A DNA stretch of 64,000 bases, taken from NCBI RefSeq assembly GCF_025370785.1, contig NZ_JAMXFA010000017.1:76766-140765 (forward strand). The letters run 5' to 3'. Below the pieces are notes generated by a model. The model was not told the origin of the DNA, made no database searches, and saw only the letters and a list, made by a program, of their open reading frames with translations. Made by a program: the position numbers and the translations under genes. Shown piece after piece: positions 38,610-52,511 of this stretch. Source of the stretch: Laspinema olomoucense D3b (GTDB lineage: Bacteria; Cyanobacteriota; Cyanobacteriia; Cyanobacteriales; Laspinemataceae). Each line of letters begins with the position of its first letter. Within the stretch, counting starts at the first letter, position 1.

Positions 38610-38772
38610 TTTTTTTATGATAGCCCGCGCAGGCGGGCTTTGTTCGTGTAGCCCTCATCAGCCTTGTCGCTACCGGGGCCGTGGGAAGAACCTCACCCTA
38701 ACCCTCTCCTTGCCAAGGAGAGGGGACCGGATTAGCCCGCGCAGGCGGGCTTTGTTTGTATAGCCCCAGGCT
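38610..38772. repeat. dispersed AGCCCGC...GCGGGCT repeats
   Basis: Two palindromes AGCCCGCGCAGGCGGGCTTTG (38622 and 38732 regions) surround CCTCTCCTTGCCAAGGAGAGGGG (about 38702-38725). The last part (GTATAGCCCCAGGCTTTAGC) matches the family at 222-274. The block may serve as terminator between the convergent PIN-like toxin (+) and methyltransferase (-). Confidence 0.7.
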
Positions 38773-39978
38773 TTAGCCTGCGGGACTCAGTAAAATCAGT
38801 TGCCGTTTTTGCAGACTTCTCACTCCCTCTAAATCCAACTTCCCTCCTGCTAAAATCTCTCCAACAGTTTTCATTCCCTCCCCTTCCTGGGAATTGGCAT
38901 CACAGCCTTTCATGAAGTCAAACTCATCCTCCGATAAGGTGACGAGTTGATAGTTGTAATCAAATAAATGTTGTGAGGGCCATCCTTGTAAACAGAGGCT
39001 CACTTCGGGAATGGCTTTTAACAAGGCTTGCTCATTCTCCCAGTCCATTTTAACTAGGGGAGGACGGGCGAGGAAAAACTCATAGTGAGTGATTTCTGGA
39101 TCTAGGAGTTCAATCAGTCGATATCGGGCCCGATCGCCTAACTTTTGCGCCTCTGCCATCAACTCTGTATCCTGTCCCAACAACCGCTCAATATTCCAAT
39201 AGTCTGGATTGGAAAACCCTAAAAACTCCAACCCCGACGCATCAATCAACTCAAACAAGGTATCGATGTTATAGTCAATCTCTTGGGGATGGAGATACAT
39301 ATCAGCAAAATTGGCATCCCGGTGATTTTCCATCGCCCACCGTTCTTTTTCCCGCTTGACCAAACGGTTATTTTCCGGTAATGCCGCAAACACTTTCCGC
39401 CCGATTTTCACCCCTTCTTGATAGTCGCCGGATTTCTCCCCTTGCAGCAGCCCGATCGCCTGTTGCATGAGTTGAATTTCCCAGCGTCCTAACTCCGCAT
39501 ACACAAAAATATGCATAATTCCCCCAGGGGCCAACTTCTTCGCCAATGCCTGAATCCCGCGAATCGGATCCGGGAGGTGATGCAAGACCCCCACACAATT
39601 AATGTGGTCAAATTCCCCTTCCAGTTGCGCGACGTCATAAATACTGAGATGATGGAACTCCACCCGAGAGGCCCCAGAACGCCGACAGCGATCGCGGGCT
39701 ACCTCTAAGGCCCCCCCGCTTAAATCAATCCCCGTAATCTGCGCCTCCGGGTTCAAATGCACCAAATATTCCGTTCCTACACCCGTCCCGCATCCCGCAT
39801 CCAAAATCCGCACCGCCTGAGTTGCGGGTTTGCGCCCAGTGCAGAAGGCATAAGCCGCAGGCCAAGTCCAGCGCCAATTGTACCCCGGAGGCGGTTCATC
39901 GAGGAGGACTTCCGGGGGAAACGGATAAGTATCATAAAGTTGTCTAACCGCAGCAGTAATCTCTTCAGAGTTCGGCAT
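38773..39978 (-). CDS. class I SAM-dependent methyltransferase
   Basis: 401 aa from the ATG at 39978 (MPNSEEITAAVRQLYDTYPF); the in-frame extension to 40026 is unlikely. AdoMet-binding motif I ILDAGCGTGVGTEYL (~57-71), motif II with acidic GIDLSG, motif IV INCVGVLHHLPDP, then a long C-terminal region of 200 residues (W.MENHRDANFADMYLHP). The substrate is unknown; cyanobacterial homologues near phycobilisome genes are common enough that no function should be inferred from location. Divergent from apcE. Confidence 0.85.
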   Translation of the reverse strand: MPNSEEITAAVRQLYDTYPFPPEVLLDEPPPGYNWRWTWPAAYAFCTGRKPATQAVRILDAGCGTGVGTEYLVHLNPEAQITGIDLSGGALEVARDRCRRSGASRVEFHHLSIYDVAQLEGEFDHINCVGVLHHLPDPIRGIQALAKKLAPGGIMHIFVYAELGRWEIQLMQQAIGLLQGEKSGDYQEGVKIGRKVFAALPENNRLVKREKERWAMENHRDANFADMYLHPQEIDYNIDTLFELIDASGLEFLGFSNPDYWNIERLLGQDTELMAEAQKLGDRARYRLIELLDPEITHYEFFLARPPLVKMDWENEQALLKAIPEVSLCLQGWPSQHLFDYNYQLVTLSEDEFDFMKGCDANSQEGEGMKTVGEILAGGKLDLEGVRSLQKRQLILLSPAG

Positions 39979-43669
<3,691 letters not shown>

Positions 43670-43740
43670 TCTTGAGGAGATGCAATTTTTGAGGGGAGAT
43701 AAGTTGGATTAAATTTATCTCGTCTTGATACAAGTTAGAG

Positions 43741-43772
43741 AACCCAGTCTGGATGACAGACTGGGTTTTTTT
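43741..43772 (+). terminator. terminator of apcE
   Basis: AACCCAGTCT, loop GGATGAC, AGACTGGGTT, then a T-run, 71 nt after the apcE stop. Intrinsic terminator; it makes apcE a single-gene unit here. Confidence 0.95.
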
Positions 43773-44066
43773 GGGGGGAACAAGATAAGTACCCCTTTTC
43801 GGTAAAACCCCATAGAAAGCCTGATCCCTGTTTGGGGAGGACGTTGGAACTCTGTGCGGCAGCGTATCGGAAGTTGTGTCAGAACTATCGCCGTAATTTG
43901 TGTTAGAGAATTGCTTTAATCCGGCTTGGGCGGCTTCTTTGTTTCCTGAATAAGAAGGGTACCAGGTAACGAATTCAAGGGAACACCTATTCTGTCGGTA
44001 ATATCCGTGTATAGAGGGTTCAACAATAGAAATTTGTTGCGGAATGAAGCCTTTATTTGTTACAGT
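43773..44066. other. intergenic region apcE-kinase, no gene seen
   Basis: 294 bp with no ORF and no strong structure other than a GC-rich palindrome CTCCGCGCGCGAGAAGCGCG just past its right end (about 44074). It is the left boundary of the accessory island between apcE and apcABC. Confidence 0.4.
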
Positions 44067-45150
44067 CTACAAGTCTCCGCGCGCGAGAAGCGCGAGCGAC
44101 ACCCTATATGGCCACCCCTCCCCATACCCTATATAGGACATGAATGGGAGGGACGGGGACAACGCTTCGTCCACATCAATCCACTCGGGAGCAGAACTCC
44201 ACCCAACTCGGTCACAGAATCGTTCCCAGTTATCATTGTCAAATATCGGAAATGTCGGACTCCCACATTCCAACCAAATTTTCTTCTGCACGCTAAAGCC
44301 ATATTTACCCTGGCTGTAGTGGACCCACAGCTTATCGATAATCTTCAAATCCTTACAGGGAAACCGCTCGATATCTTCACTTCGCAACCATTCCTTATCA
44401 GATCTTCCCATCACTTCCCACATTCGCTTCGCCGTTTCCAGGTCAGCTTCCTCCCACTGCTTCGCCGCCAATAAATCCCGCAGTTTATAATAGTTAATTC
44501 CCGGACGTTCCGAAGACAGGTCTAGACCCTCAATACTCTGTAGAGTATTTCCACGGTTTGAGGAACTCGGTTGAACTGCATCGAGAACCTGTTGAGCGGT
44601 CCAGCGTTGCCTTGGATTTTTCGCCAAACACCCATTGAGAATGTCTACAAATTCACGACTCAACCCCTGGGGAAACTCAGGTTCCTGCGTCATTACTTTC
44701 ATCATCAATTCCGGAATTGTTGTCGCCGCAAAGGGATGCGTCCCCGTCAACATTTCCTGAAGCAGAATTCCTAGGGACCAGACATCCCACGCCGGATGAA
44801 TTTCACCCTGATAAGACTCTGGGGGTTGATAAGCGAATGCCCCGATTTGCTGACTTGGACTGGTTTTGGTGGAAGTTCCTTGGGTCAACATCCGAGAAAG
44901 GCCAAAATCTGCCACTTTCCACACCTGACGCACCTTTAAAATATTCGGCGGTTTGAGGTTATGATGGACAATATTTCGACTCTGGATAAACACCAATAAC
45001 GATGCGATTTGAATGACGATATTCCGAACTTCTTCCTGCGGTAACGTCTGGCGGTTTTCCAAATACTGTCTCAAGGAATCTTCGGCCAGTTCCATCGCCA
45101 ACCCCAAATATTTTTCGTCTTCGTCGGCATCGTCTTCAAAACCGAGTTCT
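44067..45150 (-). pseudogene. kinase-GUN4 protein, C-terminal part (disrupted by IS)
   Basis: Continuation of the protein whose N-terminus is at 46673-46920. It contains kinase subdomains from LGLAMELAEDSLRQYL through VHHNLKPPNIL, VADFGLSRML, YQPPES and WDVWSLGILLQEML. The last ~130 residues are a GUN4 (tetrapyrrole-binding) domain with LRDLLAAKQWEEADLETAKR and DLKIIDKLWVHYSQGKYGFS. The catalytic-loop HRD is HHN, so the phosphoacceptor base is lost. No proper start codon in this half; the first in-frame TTG lies within the IS end. If translated, it would lack the ATP-binding lobe. Confidence 0.92.
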
Positions 45151-45155
45151 AAACT
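45151..45155. repeat. target site duplication, left copy (AAACT)
   Basis: AAACT at 45151-45155 equals AAACT at 46673-46677, immediately outside the two inverted ends of the IS. Confidence 0.9.
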
Positions 45156-46672
45156 CAATACCTTCGCCAAAAAAAGGGAGGGCCAACGTAGTACACTTGT
45201 TGTTTACCACAACCACAAATGAGACCTACATTAGCCCATGAAAGACATCTTACCACTTTTACAATGCCTCAGTCCAGTCATAGGGACCACAAGTGTGCGT
45301 CAATTAAGCCGGATTGCTTCTTCCATACTGGCAATGGAGGGCCGAGTGACCATGTTGGGGATTTCTCGCTGGACCCAAATGGGGGGCAGTTATCGCACGG
45401 TACAACGATTCTTTTACACGGTTTTACCTTGGGCGACAATGTTGTGGGTATTTTTTCGGGAGCATTTGTTCAATAAAGATGACATTTATTTGCTTGCTGG
45501 CGATGAAGTGGTTGTCACCAAAGCTGGAAAAGAAACTCACGGTCTTGACCGATTTTTTTCCAGCTTATACGGCAAGCCAGTGCCGGGGTTATCTTTCTTT
45601 GCTTTGTCTTTAGTTAGTGTTCAACAGAGAAAATCCTTCCCCATTCACATCGAACAAACCCTAAAAACTCCCGAAGAAAAGGCAGCAGCTTTAGAGAGAA
45701 AGCAGGCTAAATCCCCGGAGAAAAAATCAGCGAAAAATTCTAAGTCATGCTCTCCTGATGAAAGTACCCTTCAGGATAAGGGCGATAAAGCTCTAGTTAA
45801 AAACAAAGGAGGCCGACCCCCGGGGAGCAAAAATAAAGACAAAACACAAGTAACTTTTACTCCAGAGTTATTGCGAATCAAGGCAGCAATTGCGCGATTG
45901 CTGGGTTGTACAAATCAATTTCTCCCTTTGACGTATTTATTGCTAGACGGGCATTTCGGTAATAATAACGCCTTGCAAATGGCTCGTCAATTAAAGCTTC
46001 ATTTAATTTCTAAATTGCGCCAAGACTCCGCTTTATTTTTTCCTTACAAACCCTCTAATTCAAAAGAAAAAACTAAGGCCAAGTATGGACCCAGGCTTCA
46101 GGTTGGTCAAATTCCTGCCAAGTATTTGAAAAAAAAGACAACGGACAAAAACAAAATCACCACGGAGATTTATCAAGCCACTCTTCTGCACAAAGAATTT
46201 GCCCAATCTTTGAATGTCGTGATTATAGTCAAAACCAACCAGCGGACTTCAAGCCAAAGCCATGTCATTTTATTCTCCAGCGATGAGAATTTAAGTTGTG
46301 AAACAATAATTGACTATTATCGACTGCGATTTCAAATAGAATTTAACTTTAGAGATGCCAAACAATTTTGGGGACTAGAAGACTTTATGAATATTAAGGA
46401 GACCGGGGTGACTAATTCCGCCAATCTTTCCTTTTTTATGGTGAATTTATCCCATTATCTGTTAAAGGTCACCCAGCAGGGGCCTCTGTGCAGTGTTCTG
46501 GATCTCAAAAGTCAATTTAGAGGGTACCGTTATGCAGAAGAAACGATAAAACTGCTTAAGGAAAAACCTGACCCAGTTTTATTGGGTCAGATTTTGAAAC
46601 GCTTATCCAGTCTGGGCTGTATCCATCAACATTCCCATGAAGCCACTGACCATTAAATTGGCGAAGGTATTG
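45156..46672 (+). mobile_element. IS4-like insertion sequence, 1,517 bp
   Basis: Ends are CAATACCTTCGCCAA (45156-45170) and its exact reverse complement (46658-46672), a 15-bp perfect inverted repeat, flanked by 5-bp AAACT duplications. One transposase gene fills the element. The exact ends are set by the kinase reading frame, which is restored at codon level on removal. The 5-bp duplication and terminal CAA ends should allow placement in a family; IS4 superfamily is my reading from the transposase. Confidence 0.95.
45238..46656 (+). CDS. IS4-superfamily DDE transposase
   Basis: 472 aa, ATG. DDE catalytic residues are suggested by LLAGDEVVVTKAGK (first D), YLLLDGHFGNNNAL (second D) and the YREK-type motif YYRLRFQIEFNFRDAKQFWG that carries the catalytic E (Y-x2-R-x3-E-x6-K). 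A Lys/Ser-rich linker with GGRPPGSKNKD sits between about 165 and 205, and could be a variable insert. Uninterrupted frame, so the element may be active. The stop codon lies only 16 bp inside the right end. Confidence 0.93.
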   Translation: MKDILPLLQCLSPVIGTTSVRQLSRIASSILAMEGRVTMLGISRWTQMGGSYRTVQRFFYTVLPWATMLWVFFREHLFNKDDIYLLAGDEVVVTKAGKETHGLDRFFSSLYGKPVPGLSFFALSLVSVQQRKSFPIHIEQTLKTPEEKAAALERKQAKSPEKKSAKNSKSCSPDESTLQDKGDKALVKNKGGRPPGSKNKDKTQVTFTPELLRIKAAIARLLGCTNQFLPLTYLLLDGHFGNNNALQMARQLKLHLISKLRQDSALFFPYKPSNSKEKTKAKYGPRLQVGQIPAKYLKKKTTDKNKITTEIYQATLLHKEFAQSLNVVIIVKTNQRTSSQSHVILFSSDENLSCETIIDYYRLRFQIEFNFRDAKQFWGLEDFMNIKETGVTNSANLSFFMVNLSHYLLKVTQQGPLCSVLDLKSQFRGYRYAEETIKLLKEKPDPVLLGQILKRLSSLGCIHQHSHEATDH

Positions 46673-46920
46673 AAACTGTAACAATCTAATAAATGAGGAT
46701 GTTTGAGCCGGATAGCGAGGCGTAATTTGGCAATTTGCGAGTCGAGTTGAGAAGTATCAACCAGAAAAATTTTCAGGGCCACTTGTCGAATCAAATGGTC
46801 CGCAATCATTTCATTGGCGAGGAAAACGCCGCCAAACGTTCCGGAATCGATGAATTTGACGAGGTGATATTTGTTGTTGAATTGGTCTCCGACCATTTTT
46901 TTCCAAAAACGTCTGTCCAT
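46673..46920 (-). pseudogene. kinase-GUN4 protein, N-terminal part (disrupted by IS)
   Basis: ATG at 46920 (MDRRFWKKMVGDQFNNKYHL) begins a kinase N-lobe: Gly loop SGTFGGVFLA (first Gly replaced by Asp) and the ATP-binding lysine in QVALKIF. The real frame ends at 46673 after DCYS; the open frame running on to 46603 is read into the IS. Joining codon TAC-AGT here to TTA-GAA at 45150 gives DCYSLELGFED without a frame break, for a 443-residue parent protein. Confidence 0.92.
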
Positions 46921-46954
46921 GAGCTATTTGCTGGTAGTGTTGACGGTCGAACTC

Positions 46955-47152
46955 TCAAAATTTTAAACCCGGATCCGGATTCCCCGGTGTTGTTAGGCCA
47001 CGCTGGCGCGATAAGTTCACAACTTTTCGGACACTCTCAGCTTGCTGCTTTTGCAAATCAGCGAAAAGAGCTTTCAAGTCGTGGTTGAACGACCGTGAAT
47101 ACTCTTCGCGAATTCTGTGAATTTCTTCTACAATTGGGTCTTGATACATCAT
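46955..47152 (-). CDS. small antitoxin-like protein paired with PIN toxin
   Basis: 65 aa, ATG overlapping the PIN stop (TAATG). MYQDPIVEEIHRIREEYSRS, then FNHDLKALFADLQKQQAESV, is a helical sequence widespread in cyanobacteria next to PIN or RelE-like genes. It probably neutralises the upstream PIN protein. The tail is short and disordered (RQRGLTTPGNPD). Confidence 0.75.
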   Translation of the reverse strand: MMYQDPIVEEIHRIREEYSRSFNHDLKALFADLQKQQAESVRKVVNLSRQRGLTTPGNPDPGLKF

Positions 47153-47625
47153 TAATATCCGAGAAGTTCATAGGGTGTACAAAGAATGGGTAACTCATAC
47201 CCAAAATCCAGGCTGATCTCTGCTAACTTTCTTTGAATTTGGGCATTCGCTATGTGTTTGCAATTCCATGTCAGCAGATAATCCATACCGTGAATCGTCG
47301 CGGCTGCAATATGAATCGCATCAACATCAGCTTTTGCCGGAAGACTACTGCGGCCCAAAAACCGTTGTGCTAAATCAAACACAGATTGATCGAGAGCAAG
47401 TAAGACAAGATCTCGGATGATTTCCAGTCTTTCAGATGCCATTTGAGCATCGCCTTGTGAGGTTTCTTGCACAACTGCTTGTGAGGAGTAGAGTTGAAAA
47501 TCACTGCGGCGTGTATCCCACCACTCCCTTGTGATCTCAATATTGGCAGCCACAACAAGGTCCCTGCTTGGTCGAGCAGTCAGATAGCCTAAGATGCTAG
47601 TTTCAATGTAGACGGTTTCACTCAT
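47152..47625 (-). CDS. PIN-domain protein, VapC-like toxin
   Basis: 157 aa from the ATG at 47625 (MSETVYIETSILGYLTARPS); the longer frame to 47664 has no support. PIN features: YIETSILGYL (first acidic residue), QAVVQETSQGDAQMASER, DVDAIHIAAATIHGMDYLLT (acidic pair) and WNCKHIANAQ (NCKH replacing the usual N.KHF). Predicted Mg-dependent RNase. Toxin gene precedes the antitoxin, the reverse of classical vapBC. Confidence 0.88.
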   Translation of the reverse strand: MSETVYIETSILGYLTARPSRDLVVAANIEITREWWDTRRSDFQLYSSQAVVQETSQGDAQMASERLEIIRDLVLLALDQSVFDLAQRFLGRSSLPAKADVDAIHIAAATIHGMDYLLTWNCKHIANAQIQRKLAEISLDFGYELPILCTPYELLGY

Positions 47626-47769
47626 ACAGACAGATGCCAACTGTCTCTCTATCTTAACCGGCAATGTGGTGCTTCGGCTTCAGAGTCTATTTACCCTGGG
47701 GCTTACTCGTTGACTTGGGGACCCTCATTGTGGCGGTTCCCCGATTCTCGAAGCGGATTGGCAGAATGA

Positions 47770-47990
47770 GATGGGTTGGACCGATCGCATGTGGTTGCCA
47801 GGGGTGGGCGACTATGGCGGTGGCTCCACTTCCCCCGGTTGGCGTTTTCCTCGGCAACGGATTATCTGCATGGGGTGGAAACCCAAGTACCAGCGACTCT
47901 CTCAGTGTGGCGGGATGAACTCTATCTGGAATTTCATCGCGGCGGTTAGACCCCGCAGGCCGATCGCAAACTTGCCCATCGCCAGCCATA
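47770..47990 (+). pseudogene. GH38 alpha-mannosidase remnant
   Basis: Broken frames read MWLPGVGDYGGGSTSP and, shifted by one frame, LHFPRLAFSSATDYLHGVET, then SVWRDELYLEFHRGG, TAG, TPQADRKLAHRQP. These match the family pattern GVGDHGGGPT...FP.L.FS.A.DYL...LPVW.DELYLEFHRGCYTTHADQK as I remember it. At least one frameshift and one stop; neither N- nor C-terminal parts are present within the flanks. An old deletion remnant. Confidence 0.65.
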
Positions 47991-48082
47991 ATGAGTACAT
48001 GGGTTATTGCCTTGAAACGATGTCGTTACCGGCAAAATCAAAGTCATTAATCATTGAAAAAATTGAAACAGAGGTCCAAACC

Positions 48083-48283
48083 ATGAACTATGGCGATCGC
48101 ATCACCCTAGAACCGGGCAAACGCAGTGGTAAACCCTGTATTCGTGGAATGCGAATCACCGTTTATGATGTGCTGTCTTATTTAGCCTCTGGCATGACCT
48201 ACCCAGAAATCCTAGATGACTTTCCCTATCTTACTCAAGAAGATATCTTAGCTTGCCTGAGCTATCAAGAGAGGGGGGTTTAG
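48083..48283 (+). CDS. DUF433 antitoxin-like protein
   Basis: 66 aa, ATG at 48083. RITLEPGKRSGKPCIRGMRI, then VYDVLSYLASGMTYPEILDD and LTQEDILACLSYQER: a complete DUF433 domain. Its usual DUF5615 PIN-like partner is missing; MntA follows directly after 2 bp. Orphan, or recruited by the next module. Confidence 0.88.
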   Translation: MNYGDRITLEPGKRSGKPCIRGMRITVYDVLSYLASGMTYPEILDDFPYLTQEDILACLSYQERGV

Positions 48284-48285
48284 TC

Positions 48286-48606
48286 ATGGTAGAACTTAAT
48301 GGTTTAAATGATTGTAATTTTGGGGAAGTGTATGGGGTATTAAAACAGTATCTTCCTCAAGTTCAGTTAACCTACGGTGTTAAATCTTTGGGTATTTTTG
48401 GTTCTTTTGTTCGCGGAGAAATGACCGATAGTAGTGATTTAGATGTTTTGGTTGAGTTTGAGGGGACACCCACGTTCCGAAACTATATGGATTTAAAGTT
48501 TTTCTTAGAGGATTTATTCGGACGGAAGGTGGATTTGGTTATTCAGGGAGATATTAAGGCTCAGATTCGAGACAGAATTTTAAGAGAGGTGGTCTATGTC
48601 TCGTGA
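48286..48606 (+). CDS. mntA: MntA-type nucleotidyltransferase antitoxin
   Basis: 106 aa, ATG at 48286 with GGGG upstream; the longer frame from 48253 overlaps DUF433. Minimal nucleotidyltransferase: GIFGSFVRGEMTDSSDLDVL fits G-S-x10-D-x-D exactly, with a further acidic residue in RKVDLVI. In HepT-MntA modules it AMPylates the HepT toxin at a tyrosine to silence it. It overlaps hepT by 11 bp. Active-site residues intact. Confidence 0.92.
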   Translation: MVELNGLNDCNFGEVYGVLKQYLPQVQLTYGVKSLGIFGSFVRGEMTDSSDLDVLVEFEGTPTFRNYMDLKFFLEDLFGRKVDLVIQGDIKAQIRDRILREVVYVS

Positions 48607-48949
48607 GCTAGGGCTATATTTGCAGGATATTTGTATTTGCATTGATAAAATAAAAGATTAAATAGAGGGAATGGATTATTCCGACTTTGTTGGAGACCCC
48701 AAAACCTTAGATGCGGTGGTTCATAATTTGCTGATTATTGGGGAGGCGACTAAACAGATTCCCGATTCTCTGAGGCAGCAATATCCCGAAATTCCCTGGC
48801 GACAGGTGGCCGGGTTAAGGGATGTAATTGCCCATACTTATTTTATAGTTAATCCTCAAATAGTGTGGGATATTATTCAGGTTGAGCTTCACCCCTTATA
48901 CCAAACTATTATGCTGATGCTAAATGATGATAATCTAGTTAATGAATGA
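48596..48949 (+). pseudogene. hepT: HepT (DUF86) toxin with internal stop
   Basis: From ATG 48596 the frame reads MSRELGLYLQDICICIDKIK D, then TAA at 48659, then IEGMDYSDFVGDPKTLDAVV onward to 48949. The two parts join as a normal HepT with the stop where a tyrosine codon is usual (KDYIEGM). The downstream part keeps the RNase motif R-x4-H-x-Y (RDVIAHTYF) and could be restarted at ATG 48671 (92 aa) without helix 1. Likely an inactivated toxin beside an intact antitoxin; sequencing error is the alternative. Confidence 0.85.
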
Positions 48950-49021
48950 CAGGATATCTGTCTAAACACAGCCGAGATAGCCCTGATAGCGCTGCTACAA
49001 TAGCAGGGGTGATAGAGGGGG

Positions 49022-49573
49022 TTAATCCAGACCGCGATAGAGCCGATCGCTGGGAAATTCAAGGTCAAGGCTGGTGAGGGTGATGCGATCGCCTGCCTCA
49101 TAAATCGTAGTTTCCCAAGTATCGGCAGCGATGCGGCGACGGCATTCAACGCGCTGGGTATCTGGGGAAATTAGCACATATTCTTCCAGGCTGTCGAGGT
49201 TTTGGTAGTCGCTGAATTTGAGGTCCCGATCAAAAGCTTCGGTACTGCTTGAAAGCACTTCGGCGATGAATTTGGGGTAACGTTTAATGTAGCGGTCTTG
49301 GCGATCGCGCGGGTCACAGGTCACGAAAGCATCGGGGTAGTAATAAAACTCATCTTTGTAATTGACTTTGACATCACCATTGTAGAGACGACAGGCGCTA
49401 TCGTCGAGATGAACATTGAGCAGACTCAGGAGGTTTATTGCAATCCGTGAATGGCGATCGCTACCCCCTGCCATAGCGTAAACCAAACCCCGTCGGTATT
49501 CGTGACGTATCGGGTTTTGGCGATCGAGGGCCAGGTAGTCGTCGGGGCTGATATGGTGGGGAATGGCAATCAT
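49022..49573 (-). CDS. Uma2/DUF820 family nuclease-like protein
   Basis: 183 aa from the ATG at 49573 (MIAIPHHISPDDYLALDRQN); a longer form from 49615 is possible. Uma2 pattern: IRHEYRRGLVYAMAGGSDRH, YYPDAFVTCDPRD, FIAEVLSSSTEAFDRDLKFS, EEYVLIS. Same subfamily as 35504-36103. Lies in the accessory island. Confidence 0.9.
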   Translation of the reverse strand: MIAIPHHISPDDYLALDRQNPIRHEYRRGLVYAMAGGSDRHSRIAINLLSLLNVHLDDSACRLYNGDVKVNYKDEFYYYPDAFVTCDPRDRQDRYIKRYPKFIAEVLSSSTEAFDRDLKFSDYQNLDSLEEYVLISPDTQRVECRRRIAADTWETTIYEAGDRITLTSLDLEFPSDRLYRGLD

Positions 49574-49853
49574 TAGTTGGGTTTGCTCAAGGGGTGACTC
49601 TCTCCAGTTTGACATACTCCCTCCGGACTGAAGGCTTGGGACTTAGAACCGTGAACAAAAAATTACCCTAATCTTGTTAAAATTATTCGCTTTTATAGGG
49701 GTAGGGGTAAGGTGAGCCTGTGCAGAAAATCAGTGATTGACCATAGGAATTGAGGCAACCGGCCCACCCTACGGATCTTAAAAGCTAAGTTCCTTATCCC
49801 ATTAAGTTTATAGCATTCTTGTCACCCCTTTAGTTCCAAATGCTAGAGGGGTT

Positions 49854-51008
49854 TTATTGCACCAAATAAGCTAAAGCTTTACGGAGCAAAGATAGATTAA
49901 CTGTAAAGTCAAACTTACATAAACCTGGATTTTTCGGCAGTGGCTGTGTTGTGGGACCCACAAGGTAGTGATGCTCCAAACCGCTCACCTGACATAGGGC
50001 AAAAAAATAGGGTCTTAAATGCCCAAGGGACATCAATTCTAAGACCTTTGTTCCGGGTTGACAGAAGACCAGATTTGTAAGAGCCGCTCCATGAGGTGCA
50101 ACAATAATAGCCGCCTCATGAAACACTTGAGGTTGATTGGGTTCTTCATCTAGATTGTATAATTCAAAGCCATATTCTATGAGCAGAGGATAGAGTTCTG
50201 CCTCATTCGCAATCTTGCGAGTCCCTGTTTGACGCGGTATGTACAAACGACGTTGAGGCTGACTCGGCTTGAGTCTAATACGCTGCTGCATAAAATCTAC
50301 AACCCAGCGAGGATAATGTGCCTGTAAGCCGGGGTGAGTTGTGGCAATTAAAAGATCAGGTTGGATTCCGCGTTGACGCTCAGACCAAATACATTTAGAC
50401 TCATCAATTCCCAGTTGTCTAAAAATATTCCAAGCGTTTTCTGACATGGGTTTATGAACTAAAATCCAATCTACCTGCTCCAAACTAAATCCAGCCTTCT
50501 CAAATAGGTGCAGACGGGGTAAGGAGTCTAACAAAAAATGGCAGTAATTATTGGAGGCATTAGTCATTAAGGATAAACAAGTTCCAGTAACGGGTTCAAT
50601 AGGGTATTTTTGACGAGGTAAATTAGCATACTCCAGTCGATTGCGATGATAGGATAGGTCAGGGAGAAATAAATTTTTGCTGGTGAAGGTATAACCCTGA
50701 ATATCCATCACCTGACCTTTGGGGATTTCAATGACTCCTGTTTCCGGGATCTGCGATCGCAGATTCTTAGTAAAATCAAAGGACTGTTTACCCCAATTAT
50801 GAGTCCTGGACCGCTTCCAGTCGCAAGACAAACTTGGATAAACAAGATGCCATCTCCCCTCTTGTTGACAATAATCTTCATAACTAATCCAGTCTCGTGC
50901 TAATCCAGAGGGACCACTAGCTCCTGGAGGAGAGTGATCTAACCACGAGCGCAGTTGATCCAAGGTTTTCCGTTTAGCACGGCGCAAGAGCGAAATAGGA
51001 TCAGGCAT
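49854..51008 (-). CDS. glycosyltransferase family 61 (DUF563) protein
   Basis: 384 aa from the ATG at 51008. DUF563/GT61 features: NYCHFLLDSLPRLHLFEKAG, RRLYIPRQTGTRKIANEAEL (the YI.R motif), IIVAPHGAALTNLVFCQPGT and VLELMSLGHLRPYF. Such enzymes transfer sugars in surface polysaccharide synthesis. No signal peptide or membrane helix. No other glycan gene lies next to it, so it appears isolated in the island. Acceptor unknown. Confidence 0.85.
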   Translation of the reverse strand: MPDPISLLRRAKRKTLDQLRSWLDHSPPGASGPSGLARDWISYEDYCQQEGRWHLVYPSLSCDWKRSRTHNWGKQSFDFTKNLRSQIPETGVIEIPKGQVMDIQGYTFTSKNLFLPDLSYHRNRLEYANLPRQKYPIEPVTGTCLSLMTNASNNYCHFLLDSLPRLHLFEKAGFSLEQVDWILVHKPMSENAWNIFRQLGIDESKCIWSERQRGIQPDLLIATTHPGLQAHYPRWVVDFMQQRIRLKPSQPQRRLYIPRQTGTRKIANEAELYPLLIEYGFELYNLDEEPNQPQVFHEAAIIVAPHGAALTNLVFCQPGTKVLELMSLGHLRPYFFALCQVSGLEHHYLVGPTTQPLPKNPGLCKFDFTVNLSLLRKALAYLVQ

Positions 51009-52511
51009 AACCACAATCTTGAAAATGGGATATTGATGAGGTATTATGCCTTATTGGGGGTCGAAAATGAAGTCATCTCCATCCCCTCCCATTCAGAACC
51101 CTGCATAAAAGTTTCCCTTCACACGGCTCTTAGTCTAAGTGCCTCATTGAACTCGGGACGGCTATTGTAAAATCCCGGTTAGTCGCAACCGCTTCTGGAA
51201 ACATGGTTTTGTCTAAATTAGTTTTGCATTCAGCACAGACATATCCCCCATGAGACTCCAGCAGATTGTACTTGGTTAACTGGTTATTAAACAGGGAGAG
51301 GGGTTTGCGGTGAGGGCTACATTTTAGAGACATCAGAAATGCTATATTTTATGGATTATTTTGCCAGAAATAGAGAGGCGATCGCCCGATATCTGGAACC
51401 TTGACGATCGCCTCCAACAACGCCCCCTGATTTTTCTATGAAACCTATTCTAACCCCCTCCTAAGCGCTGCTTCAGCAACTTATTTCACCCCCACATCCC
51501 AATCCTCTTCGGATAAAGTCGGATTACCATTAAACAAATGCAATAATTTTTATGACAACTAACAAGGTTAATATAAAGAGGTGAGGTCAATATAAAATCA
51601 ATGGTATCAGTAGCAAGGGGAAGACATCGACCCTCCCCTAAATAGCTTTAAAGGGAATTTTTTGAATCCGGAAAATCTCGAATACATTTAAAAATTGCCA
51701 AAAATCAAGAATAAGCTAAAAATATCCGAGATCTTAATGGGCTGCTGATTGTCTAATCTAATAAAATGACCAGTGTATCTAAAATTGCCGGTTCTAAGGG
51801 GTGAGAATCCTGAGAAATATCTAAATAAACGGTTTTGAAACTCTGTAACTTGTAGGCGATCGCATTCTATCTAAAGGGCTTTGAGAAATACCCTGATTAA
51901 AGTCCTGCACCGCACTTGCCACAAATTTGTTTCGGAGTCGGTGGGCGAAAAATGTACTCATGGCTTTGACTGTCTCTGAATGTCAGGCGATCGCCGAGGG
52001 GAAGTCCCTGAACATCCCCAGTCTATAATCCCCATCTTCGCCCATTTTACCAGCCAGTGGCCCCACTGGAACCTGTCTTAGGGACCCCCCTCGCTGAAAG
52101 GTTCTCCTGGTGGAATTACAGATACGAAATTTTAGAGGCAGAATCTACCTGGTTTCTCAATTACCAATCATTAACTTGATAAAGTGGGGCCAACTGGCTG
52201 AAAATAGGGGTCTTACCCCCTTTAACTGAGCACAATTGTTACAAAATATTAAGTAAGGCGTGCGAATGTAAACGTCATGATGCAAAATATCCGTATTTGC
52301 AAAATCCAGTCGAAGTCAAAAGTTTTTTTTGTGAACCACCTTCCCTTAGAATACTGCTAGGGAGAAGTGGGGTAACTCAGGAAAAAGGGACTTAAACCCA
52401 AGCACTGAGTAAAAAAACCTAAAGACACAAAACCCGAGAAAGGTCTTGCAAAACCCAGATTAATATCTTATATATCTGGATACACACTCTCATTGTTGGA
52501 GGAAGTAGTTA
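51009..52511 (+). promoter_or_regulatory. long region upstream of apcA
   Basis: 1.5 kb without a convincing gene. The left part (51090-51180) contains TTTCCCTTCACACGGCTC and flanks that remind me of group II intron/retron-type remnants. 51294-51345 repeats the GAGGGGTTTG.GGTGAGGGCTA unit also found at 28717-28768. The right 600 bp is AT-rich and must hold the strong apcA promoter. GGAGGA at 52499-52504 is a good ribosome site for apcA. Confidence 0.5.

Follow-up and report, generated by a model that had tools for sequence, protein, structure and literature searches.

An insertion sequence within a kinase-GUN4 gene

The window, i.e., the whole stretch of 64,000 nucleotides of Laspinema olomoucense D3b that was analysed, contains the two parts of a kinase-GUN4 gene lying on either side of an insertion sequence (IS). 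The IS, 1517 bp in size (45156-46672, plus strand), is bordered by inverted ends matching perfectly over 15 bp, the left one being CAATACCTTCGCCAA (45156-45170, plus strand) and the right one its reverse complement (46658-46672, minus strand), and is flanked by two copies of the target-site duplication (TSD) AAACT (45151-45155 and 46673-46677). An apparent 16th pair of the inverted repeat comes from the adjacent T and A of the two AAACT copies. The element is filled by a single ORF without an internal stop (45238-46656, plus strand), oriented opposite to the kinase gene and coding for a transposase of 472 amino acids.

When the whole window was scanned for inverted pairs spaced by 600-3500 bp, a single 15-bp pair with a matching 5-bp flank was found, while 50 shuffled versions of it (first-order Markov) gave seven inverted pairs, none of them with a flanking duplication. 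The sequence-only reading, which had placed the IS at 45156-46672 with 15-bp inverted ends and an AAACT duplication, was thus correct in all its coordinates. Inverted repeats surround the transposase ORF, the duplicated target has an empty counterpart elsewhere, and the element occupies more than one genomic location (see below). This anatomy shows that a transposase inserted the element at a target cut with a 5-bp stagger.

The kinase-GUN4 gene is read from the minus strand. Its N-terminal fragment comprises 82 native residues (46675-46920), beginning at the same Met as the orthologue and followed by an IS-derived tail, in an ORF of 105 amino acids (46603-46920). The C-terminal fragment, an ORF of 367 amino acids (44067-45170) opening at a TTG codon in the IS end, codes for the remaining part of the kinase domain and for GUN4. 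Both Pkinase and GUN4 domains are detected in the C-terminal half, are complete in the orthologues, and fall into one frame after rejoining. Removal of the IS together with one AAACT yields on the minus strand a protein of 443 amino acids, in which DCYS is joined in frame to LELGFEDD.

The predicted junction is found in a relative. The congener G006 has the same locus adjoining apcE, uninterrupted, with an orthologue of 457 amino acids showing 85% identity over residues 1-413, and its junction reads DCYSSEIGFEDD, the window prediction being DCYSLELGFEDD. Window positions 38686-45155 and 46674-47152 align to directly adjoining bases of G006, where the matches of 45155 and 46674 overlap, and the target region is present there once, as GAACT instead of the AAACT of the window. 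Uninterrupted, more distant homologues (73-77% identity) are present in G021 and G049. An orthologue lacking the joined sequence had been named as the finding that would speak against the insertion; G006 carries that sequence, and the insertion is upheld. Together with the junction, this uninterrupted syntenic orthologue also bears out the earlier proposal of a kinase-GUN4 gene split by the IS within a frame of 443 residues.

The element inserted at codons 82-83 of the gene, duplicating the 5-bp target AAACT, and parts kinase residues 1-82, i.e., the start of the N-lobe, from the remaining kinase and GUN4. As follows from the sequence, this split abolishes the full-length protein, and the gene has presumably lost its function.

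Copies and affiliation of the element

The copies of the IS in the window genome (G000; 7.0 Mb in 104 contigs) were counted by searching for its terminal repeats. Exactly six exact repeats were found, corresponding to three copies with that of the window included, so that the check for further copies suggested by the sequence-only reading brought two more, both at contig ends. The remaining four repeats sit within 75-77 bases of the ends of contigs, at assembly breaks, and 5-bp duplications in their flanks match up contig C71 with C59 (CAAAA) and C34 with C69 (CTTAA). When C34 and C69 are joined at CTTAA by means of a script, an ORF of 887 residues or more is restored that contains many TPR-like repeats, so that a gene is split by this copy as well. 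At the C71/C59 site (CAAAA), no long frame runs across after joining.

The breaking of the other two copies at contig ends indicates a repeat hard for the assembler, and could be taken to mean that the IS was misplaced in contig C18 and that the insertion is an artefact of assembly. Such an error is extremely improbable, as AAACT is present on both flanks, a single frame continues across the site, the mapping to G006 is contiguous, and the other four ends pair among themselves by their TSDs. That an ISAsp3-like IS inserted into the kinase-GUN4 gene and split it can be held with high confidence.

The three copies have identical ends wherever these are readable, i.e., over the terminal 75-77 bases, and the 5-bp duplications are intact at each of them. 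They are probably near-identical throughout, since the contigs stop 75-77 bases into the element, as short-read assemblers do at internally identical repeats. The claim that the insertion is recent gains indirect support from these three copies, their identical readable ends, and their intact duplications. For comparison, insertions of ISY203 (ca. 1.2 kb), likewise a cyanobacterial IS but a different one, differ between substrains of Synechocystis PCC 6803 (PMC4632739); their recency was proven by substrain resequencing, while the window IS has been read in one genome. Titles and abstracts on the precise excision of cyanobacterial IS4-type elements gave nothing directly applicable. Congeners carry related IS copies, most of them of 83-97% DNA identity and many partial. 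An internally deleted copy of 193 bp retaining both ends (C84:1108-1300) was considered as a mobile MITE derived from the window IS and rejected, there being no matching target duplication. Similar full-length 193-bp matches occur once each in several congeners; with such single counterparts of equal size, it is probably an ancient, fixed remnant rather than a mobile element.

The transposase matches the DDE_5 domain (PF13546) with an E value of 2e-38, and also DDE_Tnp_1. Its Y-(2)-R-(3)-E-(6)-K motif is complete (YRLRFQIEFNFRDAK at residue 361), a trait of the IS4 family. Its best NCBIfam model is IS701_3 (NF049999), with a score of 102.7 bits, under the curated cut-off of 170; the transposase of ISAsp3, the nearest named IS, scores 110.3 bits against the same model and likewise stays under the cut-off. 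The two transposases share ca. 60% amino acid identity across 98% of the length. ISAsp3, which comes from plasmid pANA02 of Anabaena sp. 90 (NC_019429.1) and is annotated as IS4-like, contains a single ORF, like the window IS. The two elements are also similar in length (1452 bp in ISAsp3 and 1517 bp in the window IS) and in their ends (CAATACTGTAGCCAA in ISAsp3 and CAATACCTTCGCCAA in the window IS). They differ in the target duplication, of 4 bp in ISAsp3 (ACTT; one copy examined) and 5 bp in the window IS. Moreover, the window transposase is longer by ca. 26 residues, mainly in a Lys-rich stretch.

The IS4 family sensu stricto is defined by a complete YREK motif and a target duplication of about 7-13 bp, and the IS701 family by a length of 1400-1550 bp, ends of the form ---YACT-Y--YR, a 4-bp duplication, and the Tyr of YREK being mostly absent (PMC2266710). 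The window IS resembles the IS701 family in its length, its short duplication, its best NCBIfam model and, less clearly, its ends, which come near ---YACT-Y, and differs from it in the 5-bp duplication, the full YREK, and the NCBIfam cut-off not reached. Compared with the IS701 consensus, the window ends CAATACCTTCGCC deviate at two positions and the ISAsp3 ends CAATACTGTAGCC at one. The duplication is 5 bp in all three copies of this genome and agrees neither with the about 7-13 bp of IS4 nor with the exactly 4 bp of IS701. As the full YREK points to IS4 and the short duplication and, less clearly, the ends to IS701, with neither definition fitting, the element is called ISAsp3-like within the IS4/IS701 superfamily and no finer assignment is made; it shares with ISAsp3 transposase homology over the full length and similar ends. 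The duplications of single Nostoc relatives are apparently 6 or 7 bp. With short, perhaps variable duplications (4-7 bp, few copies seen) and a complete YREK, the cyanobacterial ISAsp3-like elements might, tentatively, constitute a group of their own that stands between IS4 and IS701 and outside both published definitions. In any case, three well-bounded copies are added here to a poorly classified group of IS elements.

The catalytic loop and the order of events

Protein kinases use the Asp of their HRD motif as catalytic base. The catalytic loop of the window gene (44943-44966, minus strand) is degenerate: it reads HHNLKPPN, while each of the four relatives compared with it (one copy of G006, two of G021, and one of G049) has HRDLKPEN or HRDLKPGN. 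The Arg, Asp, and Glu of the relatives are thus missing, the codons having changed relative to G006 from CGT to CAT, from GAC to AAC, and from GAG to CCG, which amounts to four substitutions. The window gene accordingly lacks the Asp required of an active Ser/Thr kinase, and further conserved kinase residues are altered as well. The absence of the HRD Asp has been treated as a loss of kinase function (PMC1262709). No stops or frameshifts are present in the kinase part of the window gene; nevertheless, the HHNLKPPN loop and the other changes at conserved positions contradict, at the protein level, the claim that the halves on either side of the IS are free of further decay.

In comparison with G006, dN/dS is 0.39 for the kinase gene (dN 0.087, dS 0.22) and about 0.06 for apcE (dN 0.0115, dS 0.184). 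When the changes are polarised, the window branch has 26 nonsynonymous and 10 synonymous ones, and the branch of G006 has 14 and 9, respectively (Fisher p = 0.40). The direction fits relaxed selection, but the difference is not significant, and the branch test was discarded as a proof of it; the modest excess is suggestive of more amino acid change on the window branch. Nor was a C-terminal frameshift accepted as evidence of decay: relative to G006, the final ca. 30 residues are off-frame, but the tails in G021 and G049 are in different frames too. The DNA of the 3' tail of the kinase-GUN4 genes (43930-44130 in the window, and its counterparts in homologues) is conserved, while its frame varies among homologues.

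Since the catalytic Asp has been lost in the window lineage, the gene was probably already inactive or weakly constrained when the IS landed. Because the excess on the window branch is modest, the order of events has to be judged mainly from the loop itself and from the recency of the IS. With the IS looking fresh and the loop bearing four substitutions, the loss of the loop would more likely have preceded the insertion, an order favoured here with moderate confidence. The reverse order, in which a kinase that still worked was disrupted by the IS and its loop degenerated later, once selection had relaxed, is the less probable one, though of some weight. It agrees with both halves being still open apart from the IS and with the loop changes lying in the C-terminal half, free of selection once split, but three loop residues were changed by four substitutions while the kinase part acquired neither a stop nor a frameshift, and the IS copies look too fresh for so much decay.

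The preserved frame, the intact ATP-binding Lys (VALK) and DFG, and the intact GUN4 domain could also mean that the gene coded before the insertion for a functional pseudokinase-GUN4 sensor, HHN marking a change of role rather than decay. This is unlikely, given that HRD is kept in four of the four relatives, so that HHN is confined to the window lineage, and that other conserved residues have changed too. Still less credible is the expression of the fragments as a split protein, with the C-terminal half made from the TTG supplied by the IS: the ORF of 367 amino acids does open at such a codon (45170), but the N-lobe fragment has just 82 residues and the catalytic Asp is missing. Excision of the IS would restore the frame but probably not the kinase activity, and the possible reversibility proposed in the sequence-only reading would apply to the frame alone.

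An accessory signalling gene

GUN4 binds tetrapyrroles and, according to one proposal, adjusts the enzymes attached to it to photosynthetic status (PMC7159879). A kinase-GUN4 protein has been described in Nostoc sp. PCC 7120 (PMC1262709), in which a Ser/Thr kinase domain is followed by a C-terminal GUN4, as in the window protein; the window gene differs in being split by an IS and in the lack of the catalytic Asp. By analogy, the intact protein would have been a Ser/Thr kinase tuned by tetrapyrrole binding via GUN4. Other homologues of the kinase-GUN4 type (30-39% identity) are present in the window genome and may buffer the loss of the split kinase. In G021, at least four kinase-GUN4 genes follow one another in tandem (C1:2032000-2050000); one of them has two GUN4-like units, and the arrangement suggests local duplication.

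The kinase-GUN4 gene is accessory. Its orthologue is present in two of the eight genomes of the genus searched, i.e., the window genome itself and G006; in other congeners, the space from apcE to the next conserved block is taken up by different DNA. The corresponding part of the window (43788-51868) is variable, the congeners compared differing in what it contains. Next to the kinase gene lie a small ORF and a PIN-type gene (46955-47664, minus strand), judged by their appearance to be probably a toxin-antitoxin-type pair. Between the window and G021 or G049, which belong to another family, dS is 0.61-0.68 for the kinase gene and about 1.9 for apcE, and the small ORF and the PIN-like gene are 86-87% identical in DNA to their G021 and G049 counterparts, while apcE is 69% identical. 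The low dS of the kinase gene relative to apcE and the identity of the neighbouring genes to those of another family indicate that the kinase cassette, comprising also the small ORF and the PIN-like gene, has spread laterally.

In itself, the insertion of an IS is an ordinary event of gene decay, caused here by a common kind of bacterial jumping gene, and is of little surprise. Its value lies in a clean, verifiable case of the death of an accessory signalling gene, with lateral gain, loss of a catalytic residue, and IS insertion, and in the warning that a rejoinable reading frame does not prove that the gene was functional when hit.
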